This document shows, one piece after another, positions 2,772-37,221 of a DNA stretch of 64,000 bases. The notes under the pieces are model-generated. The model searched no databases and was not told where the DNA came from. It saw only the letters and a program-made list of their open reading frames with translations. The translations under genes and the position numbers were made by a program. Source of the stretch: Psychromonas sp. 14N.309.X.WAT.B.A12 (GTDB lineage: Bacteria > Pseudomonadota > Gammaproteobacteria > Enterobacterales > Psychromonadaceae); assembly GCF_030397575.1 (NCBI RefSeq), contig NZ_JAPNXS010000001.1, positions 372,001 through 436,000 of the forward strand, read 5' to 3'. The stretch's first letter is position 1, and every line of letters starts with the position of its first letter.

Positions 2772-3311
2772 GTGAACGCCATTAGTAGTACTCAAGCTTG
2801 GGTAAATAAAGTCATCGTCAAATATAACATTTGTCCCTTCGCACGTAGGGAAGTTGATAGAGGCAGTATTCGTTATGTTGATGACAATAGTACAGATGTT
2901 GAAACGGTGTTAGATAAATTGTTAGAGGAGTGCCGGTATTTAGATGAGCACCCAGAAGTAGAAACAACCTTATTGATATTGAGTGAAGCTTGTAGTGATT
3001 TTGAAGCCTTTTTAGACTGCGTGTACTTAGCTAATCATTACTTACAAATGAATCGTTATGAAGGTGTTTATCAATTGGCTCATTTTCATCCTGATTATTG
3101 TTTCGAGGGAGACCCTGAAGAAGCAACCTCAAATTATAGTAATCGCTCGCCATTACCAACCTTGCATATTATTCGAGAAGCCAGTATGGAGAGAGCGATT
3201 GAAGCTCACCCTGATGTGGATGCTATACCTGAAAGAAACATTGAGTTTTTGAATAAAAAGGGGACTCCTTTTTTTGCTGATTTATTAGCTAGTTGTATGC
3301 TAGCTAAATAG
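2772..3311 (+). CDS. DUF1415 domain-containing protein
   Basis: A 179-residue soluble protein starting at GTG, supported by AAGGAT at about 2762 with good spacing. The opening block (TQAWVNKVIVKYNICPFAR) and the LAHFHPDYCFEG segment are typical of DUF1415, a widespread proteobacterial family of unknown activity. Conserved Cys, His and Asp residues in those blocks could bind a metal or form an active site, but this is inference. It follows the patatin-like gene closely. Its stop codon overlaps the first unit of a heptanucleotide tandem repeat, so changes in that repeat would alter the 3' untranslated region, not the protein. Confidence 0.75.
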   Translation: MNAISSTQAWVNKVIVKYNICPFARREVDRGSIRYVDDNSTDVETVLDKLLEECRYLDEHPEVETTLLILSEACSDFEAFLDCVYLANHYLQMNRYEGVYQLAHFHPDYCFEGDPEEATSNYSNRSPLPTLHIIREASMERAIEAHPDVDAIPERNIEFLNKKGTPFFADLLASCMLAK

Positions 3312-3359
3312 AAAATAGAAAATAGAAAATAGAAAATAGAAAATAGAAAATAAAAAATA
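3311..3359. repeat. Heptanucleotide tandem repeat (GAAAATA)n
   Basis: Six perfect tandem copies of GAAAATA followed by one AAAAATA copy, starting at the last base of the DUF1415 stop codon. It lies in the convergent intergenic region and codes for nothing. The 7-bp period is the same as in the larger array at 38110-38319. Confidence 0.95.
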
Positions 3360-3411
3360 GATAGATATGAGGGTATTGACTTAAGTCGAGCGAATGTTTT
3401 TTATTAAAAAT

Positions 3412-3451
3412 AAAGTCGAATGACATGCTTATTAAATATGTCATTCGACTT
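3412..3451 (-). terminator. Hairpin terminator between convergent genes
   Basis: A 14-bp perfect stem, AAGTCGAATGACAT at 3413-3426 paired with its complement at 3438-3451, encloses an 11-base loop. Read on the minus strand it is followed by TTTATTTTTAAT. It is therefore a good rho-independent terminator for the outer-membrane protein gene at 3480-4604 and possibly works in both directions. Confidence 0.75.
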
Positions 3452-3479
3452 AACTTAACCATTATAAATTACCGATATA

Positions 3480-4604
3480 TTAAAAAGTTAATGCTAAATT
3501 AGCAGATACACCCACTTGATTCTCACCGGCATAAGACCCTGCAATATCTAAACTCACAAGATCAAAGGGGCTAAAACCAATACCCGCGGTGATTGAGTTA
3601 TCAAGCGTCTCTTCTAAATCGATTTCATAACCTGCACGTAATTGAGCCCAACCCCAAGCATTACCTTCAAGACCTAAACGCACGAATTGAGTGTCATCGT
3701 CAGTACCAATGCCTTCGAAACGCTTTTGCTTAGTTAAGTCTGCATCAATGGCTGCAACAAAATAATCCGAACTGTAAGCAACACCAAGGGTTACTTGCGT
3801 ATCAAGATGATAGCTACCATTGATTGCACCACTTGTATCAATCACATCGATCTCTTGTGCTATAAGATCTTTAACCGCAATCGCAGTACGGAAGTTATCC
3901 AAATACCAAACGGCTCCTAAATCGAAGTTAAAGGCGCTCTCTGATGTTTCACTTTCATCGTAATCATCTAAATCAAAGTTTTCTACAGTTGCTATTTGTG
4001 CATAGGTTCGCATCTGTTGATATTTGGGAGTAATACCGAAGGAGAACTCTTGACCTGCTATTGTATATTGTTGAGCCAAGGCCAAACCGGCTTCTACATA
4101 ACCAAAAGCAACAAAATCAACGTTAGATGTTTCATAATCATTTGTAACGTCTGTTTGTGCAATTATTTCAGCATAACCACGCACAAATAAATTAGAAGAA
4201 ACAAGCTTAGTAGGTAAAGCAATGGCGATGCCTGTACCTGCACTCACTTGTACAGGCTGTGAGCCATCTAACTCAGTAAGATTGGCATCAATAGCCGTGG
4301 TGTCGTTTGAACCGGAATCATTTAGTTCATCAATATTATCTTGAAGATCATCAAGTTCACTGATCGCATCATCTTTGTCACTGGCAGCAACATCTATACC
4401 TATAAAAACACCAAAATCATCGTGATCACGATAATTGGCAGCTAATGCTGGGTTGTAAAAGGGAGCCGTCAAATAATCCGCGGATGCAACACCTGTGTTA
4501 CCCATGGCATTCCCTCGAGCATCTGCAATTTTATTTGATGCACTGGCATTCGATGCGGCTAATGAACTCAAAATAGCTAAAGCCAATAGTGATTTTTTAC
4601 TCAT
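3480..4604 (-). CDS. TraF_2-type outer-membrane beta-barrel protein
   Basis: A 374-residue exported protein. The N-terminus (MSKKSLLALAILSSLAASNA) is a clear signal peptide with likely cleavage after an Ala-Ser-Ala stretch near residue 23. The mature start (ARGNAMGNTGVASADYLTAP) resembles the TraF_2 / FadL-like family often named 'conjugal transfer protein TraF' in Shewanella and relatives. The remainder alternates short amphipathic strands and ends in Phe (ANLALTF), as expected of an outer-membrane barrel. A low-complexity acidic stretch near residues 78-110 (rich in D, E, N) is probably an extracellular loop or coil. No conjugation genes are nearby, so the conjugation label should not be taken literally. 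Function unknown. Confidence 0.7.
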   Translation of the reverse strand: MSKKSLLALAILSSLAASNASASNKIADARGNAMGNTGVASADYLTAPFYNPALAANYRDHDDFGVFIGIDVAASDKDDAISELDDLQDNIDELNDSGSNDTTAIDANLTELDGSQPVQVSAGTGIAIALPTKLVSSNLFVRGYAEIIAQTDVTNDYETSNVDFVAFGYVEAGLALAQQYTIAGQEFSFGITPKYQQMRTYAQIATVENFDLDDYDESETSESAFNFDLGAVWYLDNFRTAIAVKDLIAQEIDVIDTSGAINGSYHLDTQVTLGVAYSSDYFVAAIDADLTKQKRFEGIGTDDDTQFVRLGLEGNAWGWAQLRAGYEIDLEETLDNSITAGIGFSPFDLVSLDIAGSYAGENQVGVSANLALTF

Positions 4605-5102
4605 GTTTAGTTCCTTCTAATTTAAATAGCATCGTTAGCATGGCGCAAAGGCCTTGTTAGTGCTGTTAGTCCCAGTACGCTATAAGTTATATAACTTTAT
4701 GATTTAAATATAATAATACAATTAATTGAGGTGCATTATATTTTCTAAAATTTGCAGTGTATCCATAAATGAGTATTTAGTTTAATTTACATACCTAAAT
4801 AAGGGTAGTTTAATTTTCAATAAACTAGAAATAATTTAAAAATATTAATTAATCTAGTCGTTTGGTGGACAATGTTAAAAGTGCATTTGTATTGCATGAT
4901 GTCTGCGATTAGAATGCGCAACTCTGTCTGTTAATTCGATATGCTGTGAATATACTGGTTGGCACTGCATTAGTCTGAAAAGCAGTCGACAAAATAGTTT
5001 AACAACTATAAATTGTAGTCTTTTATGTTTTGCTTTTTCTCTGTACAGAATATCGCGTAATTTATCTTATTTTTAACCATTTCTCGTTAACAAGGAACCT
5101 TC
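4605..5102. other. Intergenic region between divergent genes
   Basis: About 500 bp separate the minus-strand outer-membrane protein gene from the SMC-like operon. The stretch is very AT-rich and has no credible ORF. It must contain the promoters of both genes. A good ribosome-binding site (AAGGAACC) precedes the ATG at 5103. I see no convincing LexA or CRP site and no RNA gene. Confidence 0.6.
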
Positions 5103-8100
5103 ATGGCACACCAAGCTTATCAATTATTACGTATTATTATTATCGATAGCTTTTGGAAGGGGCAAGTGAATGAACTGGATCTGTCTGGACATACTCAATT
5201 AGAAGGTACAAATGGTGCTGGTAAAACATCTTTGATGCGTTTATTGCCACTTTTTTACGGTATGCGCCCAAGTGATATAGTGAGTAAAGTAGATCAAGCT
5301 AAAAACTTTGCTGATTATTACTTACCAAGAGACTCAAGTATGTTGGTTTATGAATACCGACGTCCGGGCGGTCAAACCTGTATGGCATTAGCCAGTTCTG
5401 ACGGTCGTGGAGTACAGTTTAAATTTATCGACAGTGGATTTGATAGCAAGATTTTCATTGGCGAAAATAAAATACCGTTAAGCGTTGCAGAAGTAGAACG
5501 TGTATATCGTTCATTGGGTGTCGAGTGTTCAGTTTACTTGGGCGTCGATAAGTATCGCCAAGTCATTCAAAACCTGCGTATCGGTAGAAAGGTTAAAGAG
5601 ATTCGTCAGCTACAAAATCGTTTTTCATTCAGTGATTTGGCAACACCACACCTGGATAAAGTTGTGAACGGCACAATAGAGAAGAATCTTGACTTTGATG
5701 CTGTTAAACAAATGCTGGTGGCTATTGCGGGTGACCATATTGCACGTAGTGTAGGCCAGGAAAAAGAGCAGATAACACTGAATAAACAAGATATCAGTTT
5801 ATGGTTAGCGGATATTCAAGCTAGTCGTTCAATTCAAAAGGTCAGTGATAAAATCACACTATGGCAAACAGATTTTAATCAGTTAGATAACTTATTAATT
5901 AAGCTACAGCACTTACATGTTGAGATGTTAGCGCATCAAGAGAGCATTAATCTTAAACAAACAGAGCGTAGTCAACAGAAATCCCAACTTCGTGATGAAA
6001 TAACTCAATTAGATAAACAACTCAAAGATCAAACTTTATCATTACAAACCGATATCAATAAGTTATTGGTTAAAATTGAAGCTGATCAAAGTCGCATCGA
6101 TCTGTTAGATGAAGATAAGCTTAAGTTTGATGAAAATGATGCAGCAAGTTTTCAATTACAAGCTGATAATGCGCCACGTTACCAACAGGCTTTAAATGAT
6201 GTTAATGAGATCATTGAAGCTTTTGAAGGAAATTTAAACAAAGTACAGGCTAAGTTCGAATCCTTATTACAAACCTTAACCTTACAGAAAGTGAAAGATG
6301 AAGCACGTAACCACGAGCAGGTCGCTAACGTTAAAGAACAGGCTAATACCCAATTATCAATCATTTCTGAAACCTATCAAGGTCAACTAGGTAAGTTAAA
6401 TGAACAGTTGAATGATAGCTTTTTGAAACTCAATATGGATCTGCAGTTATTACAAAATGACTTGAAGATCACGGAGTCTGCACAGAAAAACATCAGTGTC
6501 GAGCCTGCTTTACAAGCAGAGATTGAGAGCAATCAACTTAATATGTCTGATGTCAAAGACCGTTTGAGCGACTTATTACAAGTGTTAAGTAGTGATAACG
6601 AGCAGCTCAATACTTTAGAGAAACAGCGTACTTTGGTCTTGGAGCAACATACTAAAAATAATCGCCAGTTAGATGAACATAAAAAATCACGTCAACAACT
6701 GCATTTACAATTGTTACCAGAAGCGAATTCATTACATCATTTCTTAAGCCATGAAAATGAAGCGCAAGGCTGGAAAGACAACATCGGTCGTGTCTTATCT
6801 GCAGAGCAGTTAGCACGTAAAGATCTCAATCCACAATGGGTAGCTGAACAAGGCGGTGTATCTAGTTTATTTGGTCTACAAATAGATTTAGATCAGTTAC
6901 AGGATAACGACCTGCAACTTAATGAAAATGAGTTACGCGAAAAGTTAACCAACATAGACGATAAAATAGCATCACTCAGTGATAAATCAGAGCAGTTTGT
7001 TAGTCAAATAAGTGATTTAACTAAACAAATTGAACAACAGAAATTAGTGATCAGTGAGCGTAAACAAGCATTACAAAAAACTGAATTACAACGTCAACAA
7101 TTTAAAACACAACAAGATAATCTTCTTATCAAGAAGCAACACTTTCTGAAACAAGCGGCTGCGTCCTATGAAGATGATATTAAAAAGTTAAATACCAAAA
7201 TTAAACAACAACAAGCCAAATTAACTGAGTTTAAAGAGTTGCAGCAGGAACAACGCTTTGAATTAAATAATCAAATGTTAGATCAACGTATGGTGGTTGA
7301 GTCAGATCGTGATAGTCAACTGGATCAATTGGCTGAACAGTTTGCTGCTATTCAAGAAAGTGCTAAAAATCGCCAAAAAGATTATAAGCAACAACGTGAC
7401 CAAGCTTTAGATAAATTAGACCCTGATGGCGAAGTAGATAAACGAATTAAACAACGTGCTGAATTAATGCAACAGCTTGAAGAGTGTGCGGTGTGGGCTC
7501 GTAAAGCGCGTGAATACGAAGACTTCATGAATAACCGTTATATCAATCGTGATCAATTGGTTGAACAAAATCAAAACCGTGAAGTACAAAAACGTAGTTT
7601 AGAAAATAGCTTGTCAGATTTAACCATTGAGAAAACAAGTTTAATTTCTGAAAAACAAAAACTATTGAAAAAAGTATCGCAGCAACTAAATGATGATGCG
7701 GACCTGCTACTGCAACTAAGTTTGGCACAACGAGAGTGTGAGCAATATGGTATTGAACCATTAGCGTCCAGTTCTGAGCCAAGTAATAATGCAGAATTAA
7801 CAGTGACTTTCTGTGGAGATTGGGTCAAGCAGTTTAAAACTATCGATAAACGTTTACAGTCGCAGATTACCCAATTTAATACTGCCTTTGCTAAAAATAA
7901 TGCAAATAGTGAACTATACGAAAACTGGATCAAGTTGGTAGCAGATAATGATATTTATAAAGGTGCAAGAAGTCTCTTTAAATACCAAAATCCTATTGCT
8001 GACTTGTTGAGTAGTGCTGCGCAAAAACAAAAAAATACTTATCAATTAGTGACAGTCAACGCCAATATGATCAATGAGTTTTACCAACATATTGAGCATT

Positions 8101-8825
8101 TTGCTCGCCGTATTAAAAGTATCGGTAAACAACTATCTAATAACGTTACCAAGCTTGCACATTTTGAAGCGCTTGCCGATATCAATGTAAACACGGTGAT
8201 GAAACAGGAAGAGTTAGATTATTGGGGACCGTTGCAACAGTTCGCTAAATTATTTGATAAATACCGCGATGATTTGCGCGAAGGAGTGGGTGATATTCCT
8301 GATGATTTGATTGTTGCTATGCAAAAACTATCAGCTTATTTACCAAGTGAAGGCTTTGCTTTAGCACATCACCAATTGTTTGATATTGAGTTTACAATCT
8401 CAGAAAAAGGGCAGTTAAAGCATGCGCGAAACGCAAGACAGCTTAAAAAGATCAGTTCAACAGGACTTTCTTACTTAGCGATGTTGTCGTTGTACGCAGG
8501 TATTCTTGGCATGTTACGTGGTGAGAGTGATGCTCAAACACAAATTATATTACCCGTAGATGAATTAGGTGAACTAGCCGCTGAAAATATCGACCTGCTA
8601 TTAACTATGTTTAATGACAATGCGATCACTATGTTATCAGCATCTCCTTCAACGGATCGTCATATATTATCGCTCTATGAACGACATTATAAGATTAAAG
8701 ATAACAAAATATTCCATGCGCATATTCCAACATCACGATTAGATGAGCTGTTAATGCAACGTAAACAAGTTGCAGAGCAAGCAAATCAGACACAAACAAC
8801 TGAATTGGAGAGCCAAGATGTTTAA
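5103..8825 (+). CDS. jetC: Wadjet-like SMC ATPase (JetC/MksB-like)
   Basis: A 1240-residue SMC-type ATPase. Residues 35-43 (GTNGAGKTS) are the Walker A loop. Near residues 1118-1125 SSTGLSYLA resembles an ABC signature, and near 1150 LPVDELGEL is the Walker B with its catalytic Glu. Between these lie two long Gln/Lys/Glu-rich coiled-coil arms, about residues 240-530 and 610-870. They are split by a globular segment at about 540-605 (GWKDNIGRVL...LFGLQIDLDQL) that fits an SMC hinge. It is the first gene of a four-gene operon; its stop overlaps the next start by 8 bp. Family knowledge: JetC/MksB ATPases extrude plasmid DNA loops for cleavage by a Toprim partner. Assignment to this family rests on the operon as a whole, and the gene order differs from canonical Wadjet. 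Confidence 0.8.
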   Translation: MAHQAYQLLRIIIIDSFWKGQVNELDLSGHTQLEGTNGAGKTSLMRLLPLFYGMRPSDIVSKVDQAKNFADYYLPRDSSMLVYEYRRPGGQTCMALASSDGRGVQFKFIDSGFDSKIFIGENKIPLSVAEVERVYRSLGVECSVYLGVDKYRQVIQNLRIGRKVKEIRQLQNRFSFSDLATPHLDKVVNGTIEKNLDFDAVKQMLVAIAGDHIARSVGQEKEQITLNKQDISLWLADIQASRSIQKVSDKITLWQTDFNQLDNLLIKLQHLHVEMLAHQESINLKQTERSQQKSQLRDEITQLDKQLKDQTLSLQTDINKLLVKIEADQSRIDLLDEDKLKFDENDAASFQLQADNAPRYQQALNDVNEIIEAFEGNLNKVQAKFESLLQTLTLQKVKDEARNHEQVANVKEQANTQLSIISETYQGQLGKLNEQLNDSFLKLNMDLQLLQNDLKITESAQKNISVEPALQAEIESNQLNMSDVKDRLSDLLQVLSSDNEQLNTLEKQRTLVLEQHTKNNRQLDEHKKSRQQLHLQLLPEANSLHHFLSHENEAQGWKDNIGRVLSAEQLARKDLNPQWVAEQGGVSSLFGLQIDLDQLQDNDLQLNENELREKLTNIDDKIASLSDKSEQFVSQISDLTKQIEQQKLVISERKQALQKTELQRQQFKTQQDNLLIKKQHFLKQAAASYEDDIKKLNTKIKQQQAKLTEFKELQQEQRFELNNQMLDQRMVVESDRDSQLDQLAEQFAAIQESAKNRQKDYKQQRDQALDKLDPDGEVDKRIKQRAELMQQLEECAVWARKAREYEDFMNNRYINRDQLVEQNQNREVQKRSLENSLSDLTIEKTSLISEKQKLLKKVSQQLNDDADLLLQLSLAQRECEQYGIEPLASSSEPSNNAELTVTFCGDWVKQFKTIDKRLQSQITQFNTAFAKNNANSELYENWIKLVADNDIYKGARSLFKYQNPIADLLSSAAQKQKNTYQLVTVNANMINEFYQHIEHFARRIKSIGKQLSNNVTKLAHFEALADINVNTVMKQEELDYWGPLQQFAKLFDKYRDDLREGVGDIPDDLIVAMQKLSAYLPSEGFALAHHQLFDIEFTISEKGQLKHARNARQLKKISSTGLSYLAMLSLYAGILGMLRGESDAQTQIILPVDELGELAAENIDLLLTMFNDNAITMLSASPSTDRHILSLYERHYKIKDNKIFHAHIPTSRLDELLMQRKQVAEQANQTQTTELESQDV

Positions 8826-9441
8826 GCAAACCGTTCAAAAACTATTAACAGGTGAAGTGATTTGTGAAACAGGTTTTGCAGATGAATTTTTATTCCTGCA
8901 GGCTCAAGATAACCAAGATCGTGTTAGTGACTTTTTAAGTAATTTAGATCGTCAATTAACCTTTTTGGATAGTGCTGATGCCTTTTATTGCACTTTTAAC
9001 GAAGTAGATAGTGACAACACGCCGGAATTAACCGCATTGTTCACTGACATTCGTGGCATGTTCCGTCCATTAGTTGAGTTTTTAGAGCTAATCCTAACGG
9101 CTAGTCAAACTGATTTACCAATCCATGCAAAGTCAATTATTAATATCAATGAATTATTTGACCCGTTCGAGCATGATCAAACCTTACGTGAGCAATTGCG
9201 CCACTTAACATCGATTCGACCTTTTAAAACTAATAAATTAGAAAGCCGTGAACAACTGGTATTCGTTTTTCATAAATTAGAAGAAATGGGGTATTTCGTA
9301 CGTAAAAATGCAGGGAGTAGCCGTTATTTTGCCACTGCTAAGTTTGATCTAATCTATCTGTTAATTGAATTTTTAAATGATTCTGAACGTATTGAATTAC
9401 CGGAAACAGTTGAGCAGCAACAAGAAGAGTTATTGTTCTAA
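8818..9441 (+). CDS. jetB: MksE/JetB-like subunit of the SMC complex
   Basis: A 207-residue protein starting at the ATG at 8818. GGAG lies just upstream, and the start overlaps the SMC gene's stop by 8 bp. A longer frame from 8770 is possible but sits entirely inside the SMC gene. The C-terminal part (residues about 140-195: KLESREQLVFVFHKLEEMGYF...SSRYFATAKFDLIYLL) looks like a winged-helix unit, as in MukE/MksE/JetB proteins. Those proteins bind the kleisin and DNA in bacterial condensin-like complexes. The size fits JetB/MksE. Sequence identity to named members is not obvious by eye, so the call depends on size, winged-helix pattern and position between an SMC ATPase and a Toprim gene. Confidence 0.6.
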   Translation: MFKQTVQKLLTGEVICETGFADEFLFLQAQDNQDRVSDFLSNLDRQLTFLDSADAFYCTFNEVDSDNTPELTALFTDIRGMFRPLVEFLELILTASQTDLPIHAKSIININELFDPFEHDQTLREQLRHLTSIRPFKTNKLESREQLVFVFHKLEEMGYFVRKNAGSSRYFATAKFDLIYLLIEFLNDSERIELPETVEQQQEELLF

Positions 9442-10682
9442 TGGCTGGTTACGATACGAAAGACGTTGCAGAGTTATTACGCCAGTTAGGAGCTCATGAC
9501 CAATTATTAGCAGAGGCTTATGTATTTGGCTCTGTACAGGGAGATGGTGATGAGGCAAGAAAGATTGCAGCCCTTCATAAGAAATCACTACTAAGACCAG
9601 ATGATGAGCCTGGTGATTATCGCGTCAGTGCTGAACTTAAACGAATGTTAAACCGTTTAATGCGCAAGCAGAGTAGTTACCGTCAGCTTACCGATATGGG
9701 TAAAGTGATTGATGTGTTGGCAGACACTGTTAACGATTATCGCTTGTCGGTGATCAATGACCAACAGGATGATGCTGAATATTACTTAGATCAGTTAGAT
9801 GATCTTCTCTATGAAGCAAAAGATAACCTGAATGTTAGTCTTGATAATATGCATTATGCTATCTCTAGTCAGTTTGGTTTTGTTACTACAATCAGTGCTA
9901 AAGTGCGAGAAAATGAACGTGCATTAAGCTACGCGCAAAAGCTATTGACGGAATTACAACAAATTGATCCTGAAACCTGTTATGAATGGATGGATTGGGC
10001 TTGTCCTGTTGAATTAGCCCGAAAAATAAGTGGTTTCATCTATTGGTTTAACCAAACGCTACCACGTTTACGTTATATCATTGATAGCATGCGATTGAGT
10101 CTATTTAAGCTAAGACGTGATGAGAAACAAGCGAGCCTGTTACGTAACATGGCACGTTACCTCCAAAAACACCCTGAGTTTGAAATTAACGAAAATATAT
10201 TCGAAGATAAAAACTTACCTGAAAGCTTACGGTTTGCACCCGCAATGCCGATCAAGTCATATATTAACGTTAAAGAAACGGCTCATGAATATGCCTTAGT
10301 GGGCATAGTTCAGTCATTACGCAAACTAAACTCGGTCACCAAACCGAGTGCACGTGAAACCTCGTCAGTGGAAGTGATTGAAAATGTCGCCATGAGTTTT
10401 AGTTATGATTACTTCGAAGAACAAACAGAGCGTTTGTTTGAAATGGCGATCACTACTGGTGATGCTGTTTCAGCAGTCTCATATTGGCAAAATGCTTTAG
10501 CTGATTGGCATCAATTACAACAACATATCGAACCTGTAGCTTGGGTTGAATTAGTGTTTAGTAGCTACTGTAAATTAACTAATGCACAACAAGCGTTAAT
10601 TGACATCAAGCCAAAAGGGAAGCAGCTTGAAGGTATTTCCCATAACTGGTCTTACAGTGACATTGTTGTCAAAGTGAAATAA
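9441..10682 (+). CDS. jetA: Probable kleisin subunit (MksF/JetA-like)
   Basis: A 413-residue, helix-rich soluble protein whose ATG overlaps the preceding stop by one base (TAATG). The N-terminal region has winged-helix-like segments (YDTKDVAELLRQLGAHDQLL). The middle is long amphipathic helices with many Asp, Gln and Leu residues, and the C-terminus ends in small helical/strand elements. This architecture and length match MukF/MksF/JetA kleisins, which bridge SMC heads. In canonical Wadjet operons the kleisin is encoded first; here it is third. I do not recognise a diagnostic motif, so an alternative is an unrelated accessory subunit that replaces JetA. The tight coupling implies production in stoichiometric amounts with its neighbours. 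Confidence 0.55.
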   Translation: MAGYDTKDVAELLRQLGAHDQLLAEAYVFGSVQGDGDEARKIAALHKKSLLRPDDEPGDYRVSAELKRMLNRLMRKQSSYRQLTDMGKVIDVLADTVNDYRLSVINDQQDDAEYYLDQLDDLLYEAKDNLNVSLDNMHYAISSQFGFVTTISAKVRENERALSYAQKLLTELQQIDPETCYEWMDWACPVELARKISGFIYWFNQTLPRLRYIIDSMRLSLFKLRRDEKQASLLRNMARYLQKHPEFEINENIFEDKNLPESLRFAPAMPIKSYINVKETAHEYALVGIVQSLRKLNSVTKPSARETSSVEVIENVAMSFSYDYFEEQTERLFEMAITTGDAVSAVSYWQNALADWHQLQQHIEPVAWVELVFSSYCKLTNAQQALIDIKPKGKQLEGISHNWSYSDIVVKVK

Positions 10683-10684
10683 CG

Positions 10685-11569
10685 ATGTCCGGGTATCTTT
10701 TTAATAAAATCCAATATAAGTTCTTTGCTGAACAACTAAGACAAGGTCTTAACCGGGTCAAAAAGAATAAATCCTGTGAATGGATTGTCGATGTCCATCG
10801 TTTAGGTAAGATTGAGTATGGAGATTGGGTTTACACTGAAAAAGAAAGATCTGCCATTATTGCTTTAGTGAAGTCGCAATTAAAAGTAGATCTATTGCAT
10901 GATGATTTTCCTGAGGATACCTCTCGTATTGCTCGAGCTAACACTTTTAATGAAGAAAAATCTCGCACTGTGGCTGTTAGCCATGATTTTGTTTTAGTTA
11001 ATAGCTTAACCATTTTGAAACTTAATCAACAAACTATCGAGATTAACGCATTTCAATCCCTAGGGTTTTATGTCAATGCAAACACTGTAGAGAGCGTAGA
11101 GCACGATTGTATTGTATTAGTAGAAAATTTAAGTGTAATGGCTAATTTATCATTACTAAAATTCAGTGCGAAATGTGCATTTTTAAAAAATGCGCTATGG
11201 GTATATCGAGGCGATATTAGAGCACAACAAACTACAGCGATGGCCTATCAGTTTTTCAGAGGTTTTAAAGAATCTCATCAATTAGTCTGTTTTGCTGACT
11301 TTGACCCTAAAGGTTTAGAAATTGCGTTAACGAGTGGTGCTGATTACGTTATAACTCCCACCGTTGATAGTATTAAAGCATTTCAGACTGATGGTGCCGA
11401 TACTGATTACTTTAAGCAGGCCAGCTCAAGAAACTATATTGCGGAACACCTAGTTGATTCATCAAAAATACAACAGCTATTCAGGTTAATGTCTGAACAA
11501 AGAAGAACAATCAAACAAGAGCACATGCTGGCAAAAGCGTTAACTTTGTCGGTATCTAAAATTAATTAA
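10685..11569 (+). CDS. jetD: Toprim-domain nuclease subunit (JetD/MksG-like)
   Basis: A 294-residue protein starting 2 bp after the preceding stop. The C-terminal half carries a Toprim core: Glu147 in IVLVENLS and the acidic pair Asp205/Asp207 in CFADFDPKG, which would bind the catalytic metal ions. This is the layout of JetD/MksG, the Wadjet subunit that cuts plasmid DNA after SMC loop extrusion. The N-terminal half (residues 1-130, including a short VHRLGKIEYGDW block) would be the arm that contacts the rest of the complex. It ends the operon; slyD follows after 49 bp with its own ribosome-binding site. An intact Toprim triad argues that the system is active. Family membership is inferred from motif plus context. 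Confidence 0.75.
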   Translation: MSGYLFNKIQYKFFAEQLRQGLNRVKKNKSCEWIVDVHRLGKIEYGDWVYTEKERSAIIALVKSQLKVDLLHDDFPEDTSRIARANTFNEEKSRTVAVSHDFVLVNSLTILKLNQQTIEINAFQSLGFYVNANTVESVEHDCIVLVENLSVMANLSLLKFSAKCAFLKNALWVYRGDIRAQQTTAMAYQFFRGFKESHQLVCFADFDPKGLEIALTSGADYVITPTVDSIKAFQTDGADTDYFKQASSRNYIAEHLVDSSKIQQLFRLMSEQRRTIKQEHMLAKALTLSVSKIN

Positions 11570-11618: not shown

Positions 11619-12098
11619 ATGCAAATAGCAAAAAACAGTGTAGTTGAATTTCATTATCGCGTTAGTGAAGGTGAAACGTTATTAGAAAATAGTCAGGGTA
11701 ATCATCCATTGCTTTATCTCCACGGTCACGGTGGTTTATTTGAAACCATGGAAGCCGCTTTCGTGGGTAAGTCAGTAGGTGATGAATTCGAGGTGACATT
11801 AACACCGGAACAGTCATACGGTGAACGTCGAGAGTCTGCTATTCAACGCATTCCCTTAAAACACTTACAGGGCGCTAAAAAATGGTCTGCAGGCATGGTT
11901 GCAACGGTTGAGTCTAATCAAGGTAAACAAGAAGTAATGTTAATCAAAGTAGGTCGCTTTAACGCCGATTGTGATTTAAACCACCCATTTGCAGGTAAAA
12001 CACTAACATTTAATATTCAAGTTGCAAGTGTTCGTGAAGCAACAGCAGATGAAATTTCTCATGGTCATGCCCATGCTAAAGGTGGTTGTGGTCATTAA
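11619..12098 (+). CDS. slyD: FKBP-type peptidyl-prolyl isomerase SlyD
   Basis: A 159-residue FKBP-family protein with the SlyD layout. An N-terminal FKBP half (MQIAKNSVVEFHYRV, then ENSQGNHPLLYLHGHG) is interrupted by an insert-in-flap chaperone domain at about residues 70-125. A short C-terminal metal-binding tail rich in His and Cys follows (SHGHAHAKGGCGH). SlyD catalyses prolyl isomerisation in the cytoplasm, binds Ni/Zn and supports nickel enzyme maturation. The tail is much shorter than in E. coli SlyD, as in many marine relatives. The start is supported by AGGA nine bases upstream. The glutaredoxin gene follows closely, so the two probably form an operon. Confidence 0.9.
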   Translation: MQIAKNSVVEFHYRVSEGETLLENSQGNHPLLYLHGHGGLFETMEAAFVGKSVGDEFEVTLTPEQSYGERRESAIQRIPLKHLQGAKKWSAGMVATVESNQGKQEVMLIKVGRFNADCDLNHPFAGKTLTFNIQVASVREATADEISHGHAHAKGGCGH

Positions 12099-33084: not shown

Positions 33085-35154
33085 ATGAGCAGTAATGCAG
33101 GAGGCGCGGCTACAAATGGTGGCATTGATTTTCAACAAAGAGTATCAGCTCTATTCTTAACCCATATGTTTATGGACGTTGTCTTCATTGATGACTTGGG
33201 TTTAGTAAGAAACTCGAAAATCATAGATCTTAAATTTGAATCTTCTCATGATATAGATGACTTAGTCGTAAGCACTGATAAAGCTAATATTTTTATACAG
33301 GCTAAAAGGTCGATAAGTCTATCTACCTCTAAAACCTCAGAGTTTTATAAGGTAATCAAACAATTTGTTTCCCAGTATCTTTCAGGTGTAAATGGAAATG
33401 ATAGGTTTGTACTTGCGACATCCTCAAAAGCATCTTCGCCAATAACTAAAGATCTGAAAAAAATATTAGAAAGCATAAAACTCAACGGAGGAGGTTTTGA
33501 TGAGAACCCCCTAAATCAGGCTGAGGAAAGAGCTTTTAACGTTATTAAAGATTCAATCGAAATAAATTATGAAGATTTATCAGGCAATAAAGCTTCAAAT
33601 GAAGTTACCAATGAAATTTTAGAAAAAATACATATTTCTGTAATAGATATTGAAGCAGGAATGCCTCTTGAAAAGGCCATATTAACCTTGTTGTCTGGCA
33701 AGGCCATCAATGCCCCTGAGTTACTTTGGGCTAATTTAATTAGCATAGGGTTAACACTATCTAAAAATAGATCGTCAATAGATGAAAAAGGTTTAAGAGA
33801 TAGAGTCGGTCGGTTTATAGATGAAACAGTGAGTGATAAAAAGGAATTAGATCAAACAAACCTTTTTGATATTGAGGTTAAAAGAAGCCTGTCTTCTGGT
33901 AGGGAAGTGTTAGTCATTGAATCTTTTTCTGATGATGCTGATTATATGATCGTGGAATTAATTAGATTCGAAGAAGATGGTAAGAAAAGACTCTCTTTTC
34001 ATAATGGAAAAGTTGAACTGCTTAATGGAGAGACTTGGAATTTAATATATCGATCCGCAACATATGTTGGAGTTGAAAGATATATTACAGAAAACCAAGA
34101 GATATTTAGAGATACTCGAATAGCGATTCTCGAAATTAACTCTGATGAAGATTTCGATGAAATGAGTTTTTCAAAAAGTCACTCTGAATTATGCCTTCAT
34201 CTAATACATGAAAATGAAGAACCTTTTAATTGTATACATTGTGGCGAACACATATCGGATGATAGCTCCCCTTTAGTAGAAGTTGATGAAATCGGTGTCA
34301 CGCATCAAGTTGGTTGTATTCACAATAATTGTCTGAATATAACAGATAGGGTCATAGGTATAATTGATTCCGAATTATTCCGATCAAATACGAACTTGAA
34401 TAATTTTGATTATGAAGGCTGGTATAAGGCTATTTGTAAAGGTCAAGCTCTAATTTCAGGTATTGCAACTTTACCTAGAGGTGTCAATCCAGTCTTTTGG
34501 AAACCAGATTATAGTGATATATCTAAAGGTCGATATTGCGTAAAAATAAATTTAAGTGATGGCAGTTCGAGGTATGTTCAAGATAGAGGGCGTGTCGCTA
34601 GGGAAAGTAATGATAGTGCACTTGAAAAGTGTATTTTTTTCAACGAATCTTTTGAAAAGGCAGCTAAAAATAAAGATCCACATTGCTACACATCTGAAAG
34701 TAATTTGTTTACAACTTACTCACAAGGTCTGGAGTATAAGGATGCTGATGAAGAGCTTCTTATATGTGAGGTAGCTGAACCTGCCTTATTTACTCGTGCG
34801 ATAGACAAAACATATTCAATTTTTGAGAATTATTATGCTCCATTATTAGTATTTCTTGACCAAGAAAGTGGTCTTCCACTTTTGATTGAAGGTGCAATGA
34901 TTTTCATATCAAACCCATTGAGGTTAGACAATTTTATCAATAACTGGAAACGTGCTGGTGTAGATTTACCTTTATTTACCACTTCAATCATTAAGAATGA
35001 TGATGCGTTTGATAAATTAGTTTCTGAACTTAAATCTGATGATATTGAAGTAATGATTGACCCAGAAATGGATATGAAAGGACAACTCGTGTCCTGTCTT
35101 ATTATTGAAGACTTTAATGATAAGGAAAATATAATAGCTAGATATGCATCATAA
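33085..35154 (+). CDS. Putative defence nuclease (DUF4297/Cap4-like N-terminus)
   Basis: A 689-residue protein encoded alone in an integron cassette. The N-terminus (GGAATNGGIDFQQRVSALFL) followed by Glu52, Asp58/Asp59 (SSHDIDDLVV) and Gln72/Lys74 (FIQAKRS) forms a PD-(D/E)xK-type nuclease core like the DUF4297/Cap4 dsDNA nuclease group. Near residues 383-415 a CxxC...H...C...C cluster (FNCIHCGEH; THQVGCIHNNCL) could bind zinc. The C-terminal 270 residues are unrecognised and may be the sensor. AGA and ATA codons are frequent, unlike the neighbouring housekeeping genes, suggesting transfer. An anti-phage or anti-plasmid role is inferred from domain and context; no partner gene is adjacent. 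Confidence 0.65.
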   Translation: MSSNAGGAATNGGIDFQQRVSALFLTHMFMDVVFIDDLGLVRNSKIIDLKFESSHDIDDLVVSTDKANIFIQAKRSISLSTSKTSEFYKVIKQFVSQYLSGVNGNDRFVLATSSKASSPITKDLKKILESIKLNGGGFDENPLNQAEERAFNVIKDSIEINYEDLSGNKASNEVTNEILEKIHISVIDIEAGMPLEKAILTLLSGKAINAPELLWANLISIGLTLSKNRSSIDEKGLRDRVGRFIDETVSDKKELDQTNLFDIEVKRSLSSGREVLVIESFSDDADYMIVELIRFEEDGKKRLSFHNGKVELLNGETWNLIYRSATYVGVERYITENQEIFRDTRIAILEINSDEDFDEMSFSKSHSELCLHLIHENEEPFNCIHCGEHISDDSSPLVEVDEIGVTHQVGCIHNNCLNITDRVIGIIDSELFRSNTNLNNFDYEGWYKAICKGQALISGIATLPRGVNPVFWKPDYSDISKGRYCVKINLSDGSSRYVQDRGRVARESNDSALEKCIFFNESFEKAAKNKDPHCYTSESNLFTTYSQGLEYKDADEELLICEVAEPALFTRAIDKTYSIFENYYAPLLVFLDQESGLPLLIEGAMIFISNPLRLDNFINNWKRAGVDLPLFTTSIIKNDDAFDKLVSELKSDDIEVMIDPEMDMKGQLVSCLIIEDFNDKENIIARYAS

Positions 35155-36216: not shown

Positions 36217-37221
36217 ATGACGCAGTCACGCCAATCTCAAGTATCGTTATCTGATACCCCTTATTACCATTGTATTTCTCGCTGTGTTCGTCGAGCTTAT
36301 CTGTGTGGAGAAGATAAATACACGGGAAAATCATTTGAGCATAGACGCCAATGGGTTGTTGAGCGTATGCATTACCTAGCCTCTCTGTTTAATATCGACA
36401 TTTGCGCTTACGCTATCATGTCGAATCATTATCACCTTGTACTACATATCGACGAAGCGCTTAACGAAAGCTTAAGTCATGAAGAGGTTTGTGAACGTTG
36501 GTGTTTGCTTTATTCAAAACCTATACTCGTTGAACGTTGGCAATCAGAGCAAACAACCTCTGAGGCTGAAAAGAAAGCTGCATTAGCTATTATCGAAGGG
36601 TGGAGAGGGAGATTAGCGGATATCTCATGGTTTATGCGTTGTTTAAACGAATTCATTGCGCGTAAAGCCAATAAAGAAGATGAGTGCTCTGGGCGCTTTT
36701 GGGAAGGTCGATTTAAATCTCAAGCACTATTAGACGAAGATGCGCTATTAACTTGCATGGCTTATGTTGATTTGAATCCAGTGCGAGCAAAAATGAGTGT
36801 CAGTATAGAAACGTCAGAATATACATCCGCTTACGAACGCATTCATGGTGTTGCCCAACAGCAAGAAAAGCCACTAGAATACACTTTTACTAAAAAGCCC
36901 TTATTTGGCTTTGTGGGTGATGAAAGCCAACATAATGCTGAAAACAACATTCAAGGTCTTCCATTTTCATTATTAGATTATATTGAATTAGTAGATTGGA
37001 GCGGGCGAATAATAAGGGAAGATAAACGTGGTGCAATATCAAATCAACGGCCTAGGCTATTGTCAATGCTTGCTTTAGACGATGAGACTTGGTTATCACT
37101 AGCGAGTAGTTTTGGTAAAGATTATCACGGGGCAGTGGGTTCGCTAGAAGCATTAGCGGCTTATGCAAGTAACACAGGTAAACGCTGGATAGCGAGTAAG
37201 AATCAATTACGACTGCATTAA
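36217..37221 (+). CDS. REP-associated tyrosine transposase (RAYT), Y1 family
   Basis: A 334-residue Y1-transposase-like (IS200/IS605 superfamily) protein of the REP-associated group. The N-terminal PYYHCISRCVRRAYLCGED, the metal-binding HUH motif in AIMSNHYHLVLHID (residues about 66-79) and the ENEFIARKAN-type helix before the RFWEGRFKSQALLDEDALLTCMAYVDLNPVRA block are diagnostic. RAYTs are usually single, vertically kept genes that mobilise short palindromic REP sequences, not complete insertion sequences. Inverted GTGGACA-type repeats lie on both sides. It follows attC site 2 by about 110 bp in the same orientation but has no attC of its own, so it is not part of a cassette. Confidence 0.9.
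   Translation: MTQSRQSQVSLSDTPYYHCISRCVRRAYLCGEDKYTGKSFEHRRQWVVERMHYLASLFNIDICAYAIMSNHYHLVLHIDEALNESLSHEEVCERWCLLYSKPILVERWQSEQTTSEAEKKAALAIIEGWRGRLADISWFMRCLNEFIARKANKEDECSGRFWEGRFKSQALLDEDALLTCMAYVDLNPVRAKMSVSIETSEYTSAYERIHGVAQQQEKPLEYTFTKKPLFGFVGDESQHNAENNIQGLPFSLLDYIELVDWSGRIIREDKRGAISNQRPRLLSMLALDDETWLSLASSFGKDYHGAVGSLEALAAYASNTGKRWIASKNQLRLH

Follow-up and report, generated by a model that had tools for sequence, protein, structure and literature searches.

An SMC-led four-gene locus in Psychromonas

When analyzing a 64,000-nucleotide stretch of the Psychromonas sp. 14N.309.X.WAT.B.A12 genome (contig NZ_JAPNXS010000001.1, positions 372,001 to 436,000; hereafter the window), we examined four tight open reading frames (ORFs) on the forward strand at window positions 5103-11569, which encode, in this order, an SMC ATPase, a predicted KITE subunit (E), a putative kleisin (F), and a Toprim nuclease (G). 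Judged by sequence and modelled folds, the complex belongs to the Wadjet/MksBEF superfamily, with the window members outside the modelled Jet families, and no other SMC complex was found in the marine genus Psychromonas. The initial annotation, made from the sequence alone, had described four genes overlapping or 2 bp apart, and the ORFs agree with it in all positions and sizes: SMC and E overlap by 8 bases and E and F by 1 base, and 2 bases separate F from G. The start of E was taken as the ATG at 8818, where its relatives align; the ORF list has a longer TTG start at 8770. The features are as follows.

5103 to 8825, + strand: SMC ATPase, DUF3584 family, JetC/MksB-like, 1240 amino acids (PF12128, 1040.5 bits, residues 12-1200)
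5205 to 5231, + strand: Walker A motif GTNGAGKTS, SMC residues 35-43 (sequence, conservation)
8544 to 8567, + strand: Walker B region IILPVDEL, SMC residues 1148-1155 (sequence, conservation)
8818 to 9441, + strand: E, predicted KITE subunit (MksE/JetB/MukE-like), 207 amino acids (AlphaFold model, Foldseek and VIA-align matches)
9421 to 9438, + strand: QEELLF at the E C terminus, candidate sliding-clamp-binding motif (family-wide ending after a disordered linker)
9441 to 10682, + strand: F, putative kleisin (MukF/JetA-like), 413 amino acids (weak Foldseek ranking; predicted local distance difference test score [pLDDT] of 76, predicted template modeling score [pTM] of 0.39)
10685 to 11569, + strand: G, Toprim nuclease (DUF7281; JetD/MksG-like), 294 amino acids, optional module (PF23947, 155 bits)
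11123 to 11125, + strand: predicted catalytic Glu codon, G E147 (invariant in alignments)
11297 to 11305, + strand: predicted catalytic DxD codons, G D205-F-D207 (invariant in alignments)
11619 to 12098, + strand: FKBP-type isomerase gene, frequent 3' neighbor, marks the empty site of G (comparison of F-to-FKBP gaps)

The first gene had been read as a 1240-residue SMC ATPase with a GTNGAGKTS Walker A motif, which is confirmed by the near full-length DUF3584 match and by the GTNxxGKT, SSxG, and DELG motifs, each at least 90% conserved in 78 aligned SMC proteins. Comparison of profiles with hhalign related it to type I JetC with a probability of 97.8% (best aligned part, residues 574-761) and to MukB with 76.6%, and five unrelated control pairs all stayed at or below 0.2%. 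Among the PADLOC models, the window SMC matched AriA only (6.7e-9), and a Shewanella relative reached JetC1 at 9.1e-5, its G reaching JetD1 at 3.9e-6. The JetC1 models carry the label "DUF3584 domain; MukB-like," which already implies that SMCs of this kind are distantly related to JetC. The MukB N-terminal domain (PF04310) matched neither the window SMC nor anything else in its genome, and the Smc-ScpAB model TIGR02169 gave the window SMC 7.7 bits against a cutoff of 729. Among the papers listed for DUF3584, none was about this system by title.

Predicted folds of the small subunits

The small subunits had been said to be unrecognizable from named families, and the searches agree: window E and F have no Pfam family above noise, nothing useful in NCBIfam, and no PADLOC Jet model, and comparing their sequence profiles with the PDB led nowhere. 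The PADLOC blank is informative, since a type I control operon from another genome scored strongly on all four curated models (9e-104 or better; JetA, 9.8e-253; JetB, 9.1e-104; JetC, 0; JetD, 5.8e-172). Pfam MksE (PF21980) matches 31 of 51 E relatives, with a best value of 1.3e-9, but not window E. Profile comparison joined E to JetB (86%, 4.8e-6) and gave no match with MukE.

The AlphaFold model of E (51 sequences) was confident, with a pLDDT of 86.8. Its 15 best Foldseek matches in the PDB were all chains of Wadjet JetABC, MukEF, or MukBEF structures, with a best E value of 1.3e-4 and template modeling (TM) scores of 0.38 to 0.47; that these are the KITE chains is judged from chain size. VIA-align superimposed 154 residues of E on 8dk1_E of JetABC (Z of 9.9, root mean square deviation [rmsd] of 4.2) and 154 on 3euh_F of MukE-MukF (Z of 8.8, rmsd of 5.4). 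Run on a protein that had been called winged-helix-like, this structure check returned a KITE fold with a good match to JetB/MukE, and the assignment of E as the KITE subunit is supported by the predicted fold.

The model of F is poorer than that of E. Its N-terminal part is helical with two short strands; a long helical stretch forms the middle, and a disordered linker leads to a helix-strand C-terminal end. The 10 best Foldseek matches in the PDB were chains of MukBEF, MukEF, MukF, or JetABC structures; only the first (3.1e-4) was below 0.001, and TM scores were 0.12 to 0.24. As unrelated helical bundles reached the same Z in VIA-align as the kleisin matches, F is called a kleisin from its Foldseek ranking, its domain layout, and its place in the operon. 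The sequence profile of F matched neither JetA nor MukF nor anything else. The 413-residue protein of the initial annotation thus finds its best folds in MukF and JetA, as expected of something kleisin-like, but the match is weak and lacks a counterpart in the profiles. By predicted fold F looks like a kleisin, the weakest of the four assignments.

Gene order across relatives and controls

The order SMC-E-F-G, with G missing in some, recurred in 100 loci compared, drawn as sets of 20 and 80 that share genomes (e.g., L033 and L052), so that the counts are not independent events. Two loci with broken or miscalled ORFs, L062 and L111, are exceptions, and in L048 and L049 an ORF of G size after F was aligned as G. 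Thirteen plasmid loci and one phage-record locus have the order too; it was read from ORFs in L207, an unannotated record, and the SMC and kleisin genes of L200 are in pieces. The set is also present in Azotobacter vinelandii CA (L093). Matches to the E family in 74 genomes out of 197 of the order, together with the gene order recurring across the 100 loci, put the four-gene arrangement far beyond chance.

The Wadjet control loci were of the DUF4194 (JetB) and JetD2 types. DUF4194 loci ran kleisin-KITE-SMC-nuclease wherever the parts were recognized by size and place (18 SMC, 16 kleisin, and 14 nuclease genes); L166 has no nuclease ORF and L167 ends early. Two JetD2-type loci have an SMC of 1377 to 1380 amino acids directly before the nuclease and kleisin- and KITE-size ORFs before the SMC, only one such ORF being resolved in L144. 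For 9 of 10 MukB loci, a kleisin-size and then a KITE-size ORF precede MukB (L190 was not resolved). The order with SMC first and the kleisin third, which the initial annotation had called unusual, indeed differs from the kleisin-KITE-SMC-nuclease order seen in the control Wadjet loci, and from that of the MukBEF control loci as well.

No other condensin found in Psychromonas

We investigated the distribution of condensins in samples of assemblies, among them 197 genomes of the order, with absence judged by hidden Markov models (HMMs). Of these genomes, 74 had E, 100 had SMC at 1e-60 (98 over the cutoff), 69 had MukB at E < 1e-60 (72 over the cutoff), and 95 had ScpA over the cutoff. By combination, 57 genomes have E with SMC, 16 have E alone, 1 has E with MukB, 35 have SMC alone, 60 have MukB alone, 8 have SMC with MukB, and 20 have none. 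Strict mutual exclusion with SMC-ScpAB was rejected, since 57 of the 74 E-bearing genomes have SMC. The genomes with E alone are the 13 Psychromonas of the draw and G070, G088, and G104; these last three, from another family of the order and without SMC or MukB, are possibly a second sole-condensin case.

The DUF3584 SMC was found in 24 of 24 Psychromonas genomes, with one match each, and SMC_prok_B at 1e-20 in none of the 24. ScpA was absent from all 13 Psychromonas. It was also absent from the genome of the window, where the best TIGR02168 match had 31.7 bits against a cutoff of 567. No full MukB was found in the 13 with the N-terminal model, one partial match (8.3e-5) occurring in G125. DUF4194/JetB gave no hit in the genome of the window or in three further Psychromonas; two genomes carry both the SMC-E-F system and a separate DUF4194 operon. 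SMC-E-F(G) is the only condensin found in Psychromonas. Among the top papers listed by a literature search on Psychromonas and condensins, none contains Psychromonas.

G is an optional, fast-evolving module

Besides its DUF7281 match, G is related to JetD by hhalign (92%). Window G reaches PADLOC JetD2 at 0.028 only, 15 of 48 G relatives reach the most frequent JetD1 model at an E value of at most 0.1 (best, 3e-9), and JetD3 models weakly match some relatives. There are also weak profile matches to TopoVI-A (0.04) and Spo11 (0.043). The Toprim reading of the initial annotation, with E147 and D205xD207, holds across the family: none of the three residues varies among 48 aligned G proteins or in a wider alignment of 92 rows, some of them duplicates. 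No paper was found in a literature search for DUF7281.

G ORFs are missing from 21 of 80 loci, in one of which (L087) the contig ends within G, leaving 79 assessable. No intact G was detected by BLAST or the G profile in 20 of these, Psychromonas L057 and L063 included, and SMC-E-F stay. Tblastn found remnants of G directly after F in L070 (22 residues, 5.3e-6) and L111 (30 residues, 2.5e-7), so G was lost there and at least some absences are losses; nothing convincing was found in the other 18 G-less loci. The gaps left behind are short. In Shewanella, F and the following symporter gene are 494 to 621 bases apart in 8 loci without G and 1156 to 1470 in 14 with G (6674 in L095); the F-to-FKBP gap is 112 bases in Psychromonas L057, which has no G, while ten Psychromonas loci that have G show gaps of 927 to 2159 bases. 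The same gap is 6896 bases in L064, where an insertion is present. Among the genomes of the order, DUF7281 is over the cutoff in 43 of the 74 E-bearing genomes, weak in one more, and missing from 30; it occurs over the cutoff without E once (G113).

Replacement of G by another effector in G-less loci was rejected: the matches among seven neighbors scanned were to an SDF symporter, PhoU, MaoC, and FKBP, and two neighbors were unmatched; the seven include two that are, or are akin to, the FKBP and symporter reference genes. In two Psychromonas loci (L032, 7911-12767; L064, 10865-16269), F and G are separated by about 5 kb of other genes; by eye these look like ordinary metabolic and envelope genes, and G remains upstream of FKBP. 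An unmatched, apparently hydrophobic 155-amino-acid ORF lies between F and G in L042 (7484-7951, minus strand), and an unmatched 191-amino-acid ORF follows G in L032 (13633-14208, plus strand).

For 60 locus pairs with an SMC identity of 90 to 99.5%, median identities were 94.8% for SMC, 96.4% for E, 95.6% for F, and 74.8% for G. Between the window and L052, nonsynonymous divergence (dN) was 0.035 for SMC, 0.014 for E, 0.027 for F, and 0.170 for G, at a synonymous divergence (dS) of 1.5 to 1.6, near saturation. By these sequence comparisons G evolves several times faster than SMC, E, and F.

Mobile copies and the SMC tree

Fourteen mobile copies were read, 13 from plasmid records and one from a phage record, and all 14 keep G with E147, D205, and D207. 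G is thus kept in 14 of 14 mobile loci versus 59 of 79 genome-assembly loci (P = 0.035). Typing assigned 4 of the 13 plasmids as conjugative, 2 as mobilizable, and 7 as non-mobilizable; given these seven, and sizes of 0.9 to 1.2 Mb for some, "mobile" is a loose label. The phage record, a 209-kb record of Dolichospermum phage Dfl-JY45 (L205), holds a complete SMC-E-F-G set at 2810-9165, with the clamp-like tail QGLLL. A phage-borne family was rejected: the scan of viral contigs confirmed none. One record deposited as a phage carries the set.

The phylogeny check was run as an SMC tree of 89 sequences, including four JetC. It gave two separate genome-assembly clades of 39 leaves each, with support of 1.0 and 0.66, but the deep nodes are weak, and seven plasmid- or phage-record sequences are scattered between the two clades. 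Fifteen of 16 Psychromonas leaves, the window included, group together with support of 1.0. The SMC of Psychromonas L064 groups near Shewanella and Pseudoalteromonas, and the only condensin may have passed from one genus to another there. The tree is in keeping with a mobile, defence-like family that chromosomes adopted on more than one occasion, a fit that is no proof of direction.

The E tail resembles a sliding-clamp-binding motif

Residues 194 to 207 of E are disordered in the AlphaFold model (pLDDT < 50), and Q202 and L205 within them are invariant in 51 E sequences. The ending Q..L[LIVMF][FL]? was found in 81 of 81 E proteins (the window and 80 genome-assembly loci, taken as chromosomal, of which draft contigs are no proof); Q1 and L4 are fixed in all 81, position 3 holds E, D, S, Q, N, or H, and L, I, or V stands at position 5. 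When the ORFs of at least 150 amino acids in the fetched loci are counted, with shadow ORFs, the ending occurs in 100 of 100 E ORFs (duplicates among them) and in 2 of the 1396 remaining ORFs. In the background set, the only two non-E ORFs with a clamp-like motif at their end are at 14896-17343 of L032 (QMRLF) and 2222-3883 of L044 (QQPLL). No JetB (0/22) or MukE (0/9) has the motif at its C terminus.

In the literature the clamp motif is given as QL[S/D]LF or, in broader form, QxxLF, of which positions 1, 4, and 5 are reported as most important (PMC12309361), and it is described as often sitting at the C terminus (PMC4549789). The E tail resembles this bacterial sliding-clamp-binding motif, and from its sequence E probably binds the replication clamp. 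Literature joining MksBEF with the sliding clamp, including PMC12153180, led nowhere. Plasmid- and phage-record E proteins fit the strict ending in 5 of 14 cases, against 81 of 81 for genome assemblies (Fisher P = 1.7e-9, relatedness ignored). Thus, in genome assemblies the tail is universal and the nuclease optional, whereas on plasmids the nuclease is universal and the tail optional. Of the hints at a chromosomal role for the tail, this contrast is the strongest.

Alternatively, the tail may be a contact within the complex, with the SMC neck, the kleisin, or G, which we regard as a real possibility given that the clamp is a partner by resemblance and that position 5 is not F. However, the tail follows a linker that is disordered in the model and is kept in loci without G; moreover, nine mobile four-gene copies live without it, so assembly of the complex seems not to need it.

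Relation to known systems

Wadjet type I (JetABCD, MksBEFG) has the four functions in common with the Psychromonas system, KITE and kleisin by fold and the kleisin most weakly. E, SMC, and G are similar in profile to JetB, JetC, and JetD, the fold of E is JetB-like, and the Toprim residues are kept. The order, however, is kleisin-KITE-SMC-nuclease in type I and SMC-KITE-kleisin-nuclease here, G has 294 amino acids versus about 400 in the type I nuclease, and window E and F have no match to the curated models that recognize type I so strongly. The E tail motif, the optional nuclease, and the sole-condensin state in a genus are further features unlike type I. Wadjet type II (Neobacillus vireti JetABC) has the same complement and is among the fold matches of E and F, but in the two JetD2-type loci the SMC (1377-1380 amino acids) stands directly before the nuclease, with kleisin/KITE-size ORFs first.

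MukBEF resembles the system in its KITE and kleisin folds and in usually being the only condensin of its hosts, and the two nearly exclude each other in the order (E in 74 and strong MukB in 69 of 197 genomes, both in 1). It differs in the MukB domain, missing here, in the order kleisin-KITE-SMC, in having no nuclease, and in that no MukE ends in the tail motif. Pseudomonas aeruginosa MksBEF, compared by its published description, is probably a cousin of the Psychromonas complex: both can occur as a three-subunit condensin that lacks a nuclease, and many E relatives, though not window E, match Pfam MksE, but MksBEF works beside SMC-ScpAB there. Reportedly, it acts on the chromosome and forms clusters at the replication site (PMC7485682).

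The same source reports several distantly related MksBEF families (PMC7485682), and together with the 31 E relatives matching Pfam MksE this would agree with the system belonging to the MksBEF(G) subfamilies that Petrushenko et al. (2011) had already listed, with only the Psychromonas distribution and the tail as new. We find this rather doubtful. No MksE, JetA, or JetB model matches window E or F, the reported mksFEBG order of F-E-B-G (PMC10123090), mksF-mksE-mksB(-mksG), is not that of the SMC-E-F-G loci, and two genomes hold the system along with the separate DUF4194 operon.

A proposed chromosomal condensin armed with a nuclease

With a probability of roughly 0.6, we read the locus as a Wadjet/MksBEF-superfamily complex that serves as a housekeeping condensin, is probably coupled to replication, and in most cases carries a Wadjet-type nuclease. 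The SMC-E-F motor would extrude DNA loops like its relatives and would act as the chromosomal condensin of Psychromonas, because no SMC-ScpAB or MukBEF is left to do that job. The E tail and the clamp may bring the complex to newly replicated DNA, for which the clustering of P. aeruginosa MksBEF at the replication site offers an independent parallel (PMC7485682). G would ride the same motor and cut small circular DNA, such as plasmids, once extrusion is completed, as in the reported Wadjet mechanism of cutting fully extruded circles (PMC12647877); it can be lost without losing the condensin. More tentatively, a single nuclease-armed condensin hooked to the clamp via its KITE subunit might load behind every fork, fold the chromosome, and cut any circle that it can fully extrude, making immunity and organization one replication-coupled machine. 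If this held, a clamp-binding tail on a KITE subunit would be a concrete link between replication and SMC loading, and a genus whose only condensin still carries a nuclease would lend itself naturally to testing how the chromosome of the cell is spared by such a machine.

Several points weigh against a replication-tied housekeeping condensin. Absence of other condensins rests on HMM searches, with MukB judged by its N-terminal model only, and an unrecognized SMC could exist. The E-bearing genomes that also have SMC all lie outside Psychromonas, so the sole-condensin state is a feature of Psychromonas (plus G070, G088, and G104) and not of the family. Position 5 of the tail is L, I, or V where the commonest clamp motif has F, and the tail could bind something else. 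Two of the nine MukE tails (L184 and L188) hold QLEL or QLGL in their last 22 residues, short of the very end; strings of this kind can therefore arise in a KITE protein without a known clamp role too. The strict motif is missing from 9 of 14 mobile copies, one Psychromonas locus (L042) has none of the common flanks described below, and, given the weak deep nodes of the SMC tree, a direction from defence to condensin is not established.

The initial annotation had proposed an under-described Wadjet type. The JetABCD/MksBEFG complement and the different order bear this out in part, but the locus is not merely a plasmid-defence operon, as it encodes the only condensin found in Psychromonas and SMC-E-F persists without the nuclease. 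Plain Wadjet-type plasmid defence of a new type, with no chromosomal duty and with Psychromonas managing without a condensin, is in our view unlikely. It would fit the four-subunit complement with its intact Toprim residues, the profile similarity to JetB, JetC, and JetD, the retention of G in all 14 mobile copies (13 from plasmid records, of which 4 conjugative and 2 mobilizable), and the rapid change of G, as in conflict proteins. It leaves unexplained, however, why SMC-E-F persist without G, and it sits poorly with retention in 24 of 24 Psychromonas genomes that have no other condensin found and with the core flanks that most Psychromonas loci have in common. Least probable is a condensin whose Toprim subunit serves the chromosome (e.g., in decatenation or topology control like TopoVI-A/Spo11) and not defence: the weak TopoVI-A and Spo11 matches of G, its close linkage to a likely housekeeping complex, and its presence in 12 of the 13 Psychromonas of the order draw would suit this, but no intact G is found in 20 of 79 loci, two of them from Psychromonas, its rapid amino acid change does not resemble a chromosomal topoisomerase, and the operon offers it no ATPase partner except SMC.

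Flanks and other genes of the window

Psychromonas loci are flanked by genes for patatin, DUF1415, FKBP, glutaredoxin, and PutA; across 11 loci, FKBP is shared by 9, patatin by 8, DUF1415 by 7, and PutA by 6. A defence-island setting was rejected, these flanks being common to most, not all, Psychromonas loci. Elsewhere in the window, a 689-amino-acid protein (33085-35154, plus strand) matches in its N-terminal part the PADLOC candidate defence family PDC-M54A (7.4e-36) and, weakly, LmuA (2.8e-6); an unmatched 229-amino-acid ORF comes next. Further on, a 334-amino-acid protein (36217-37221, plus strand) has a weak likeness to IS200/Y1 transposases (PF01797, 8.7e-4, under the cutoff).

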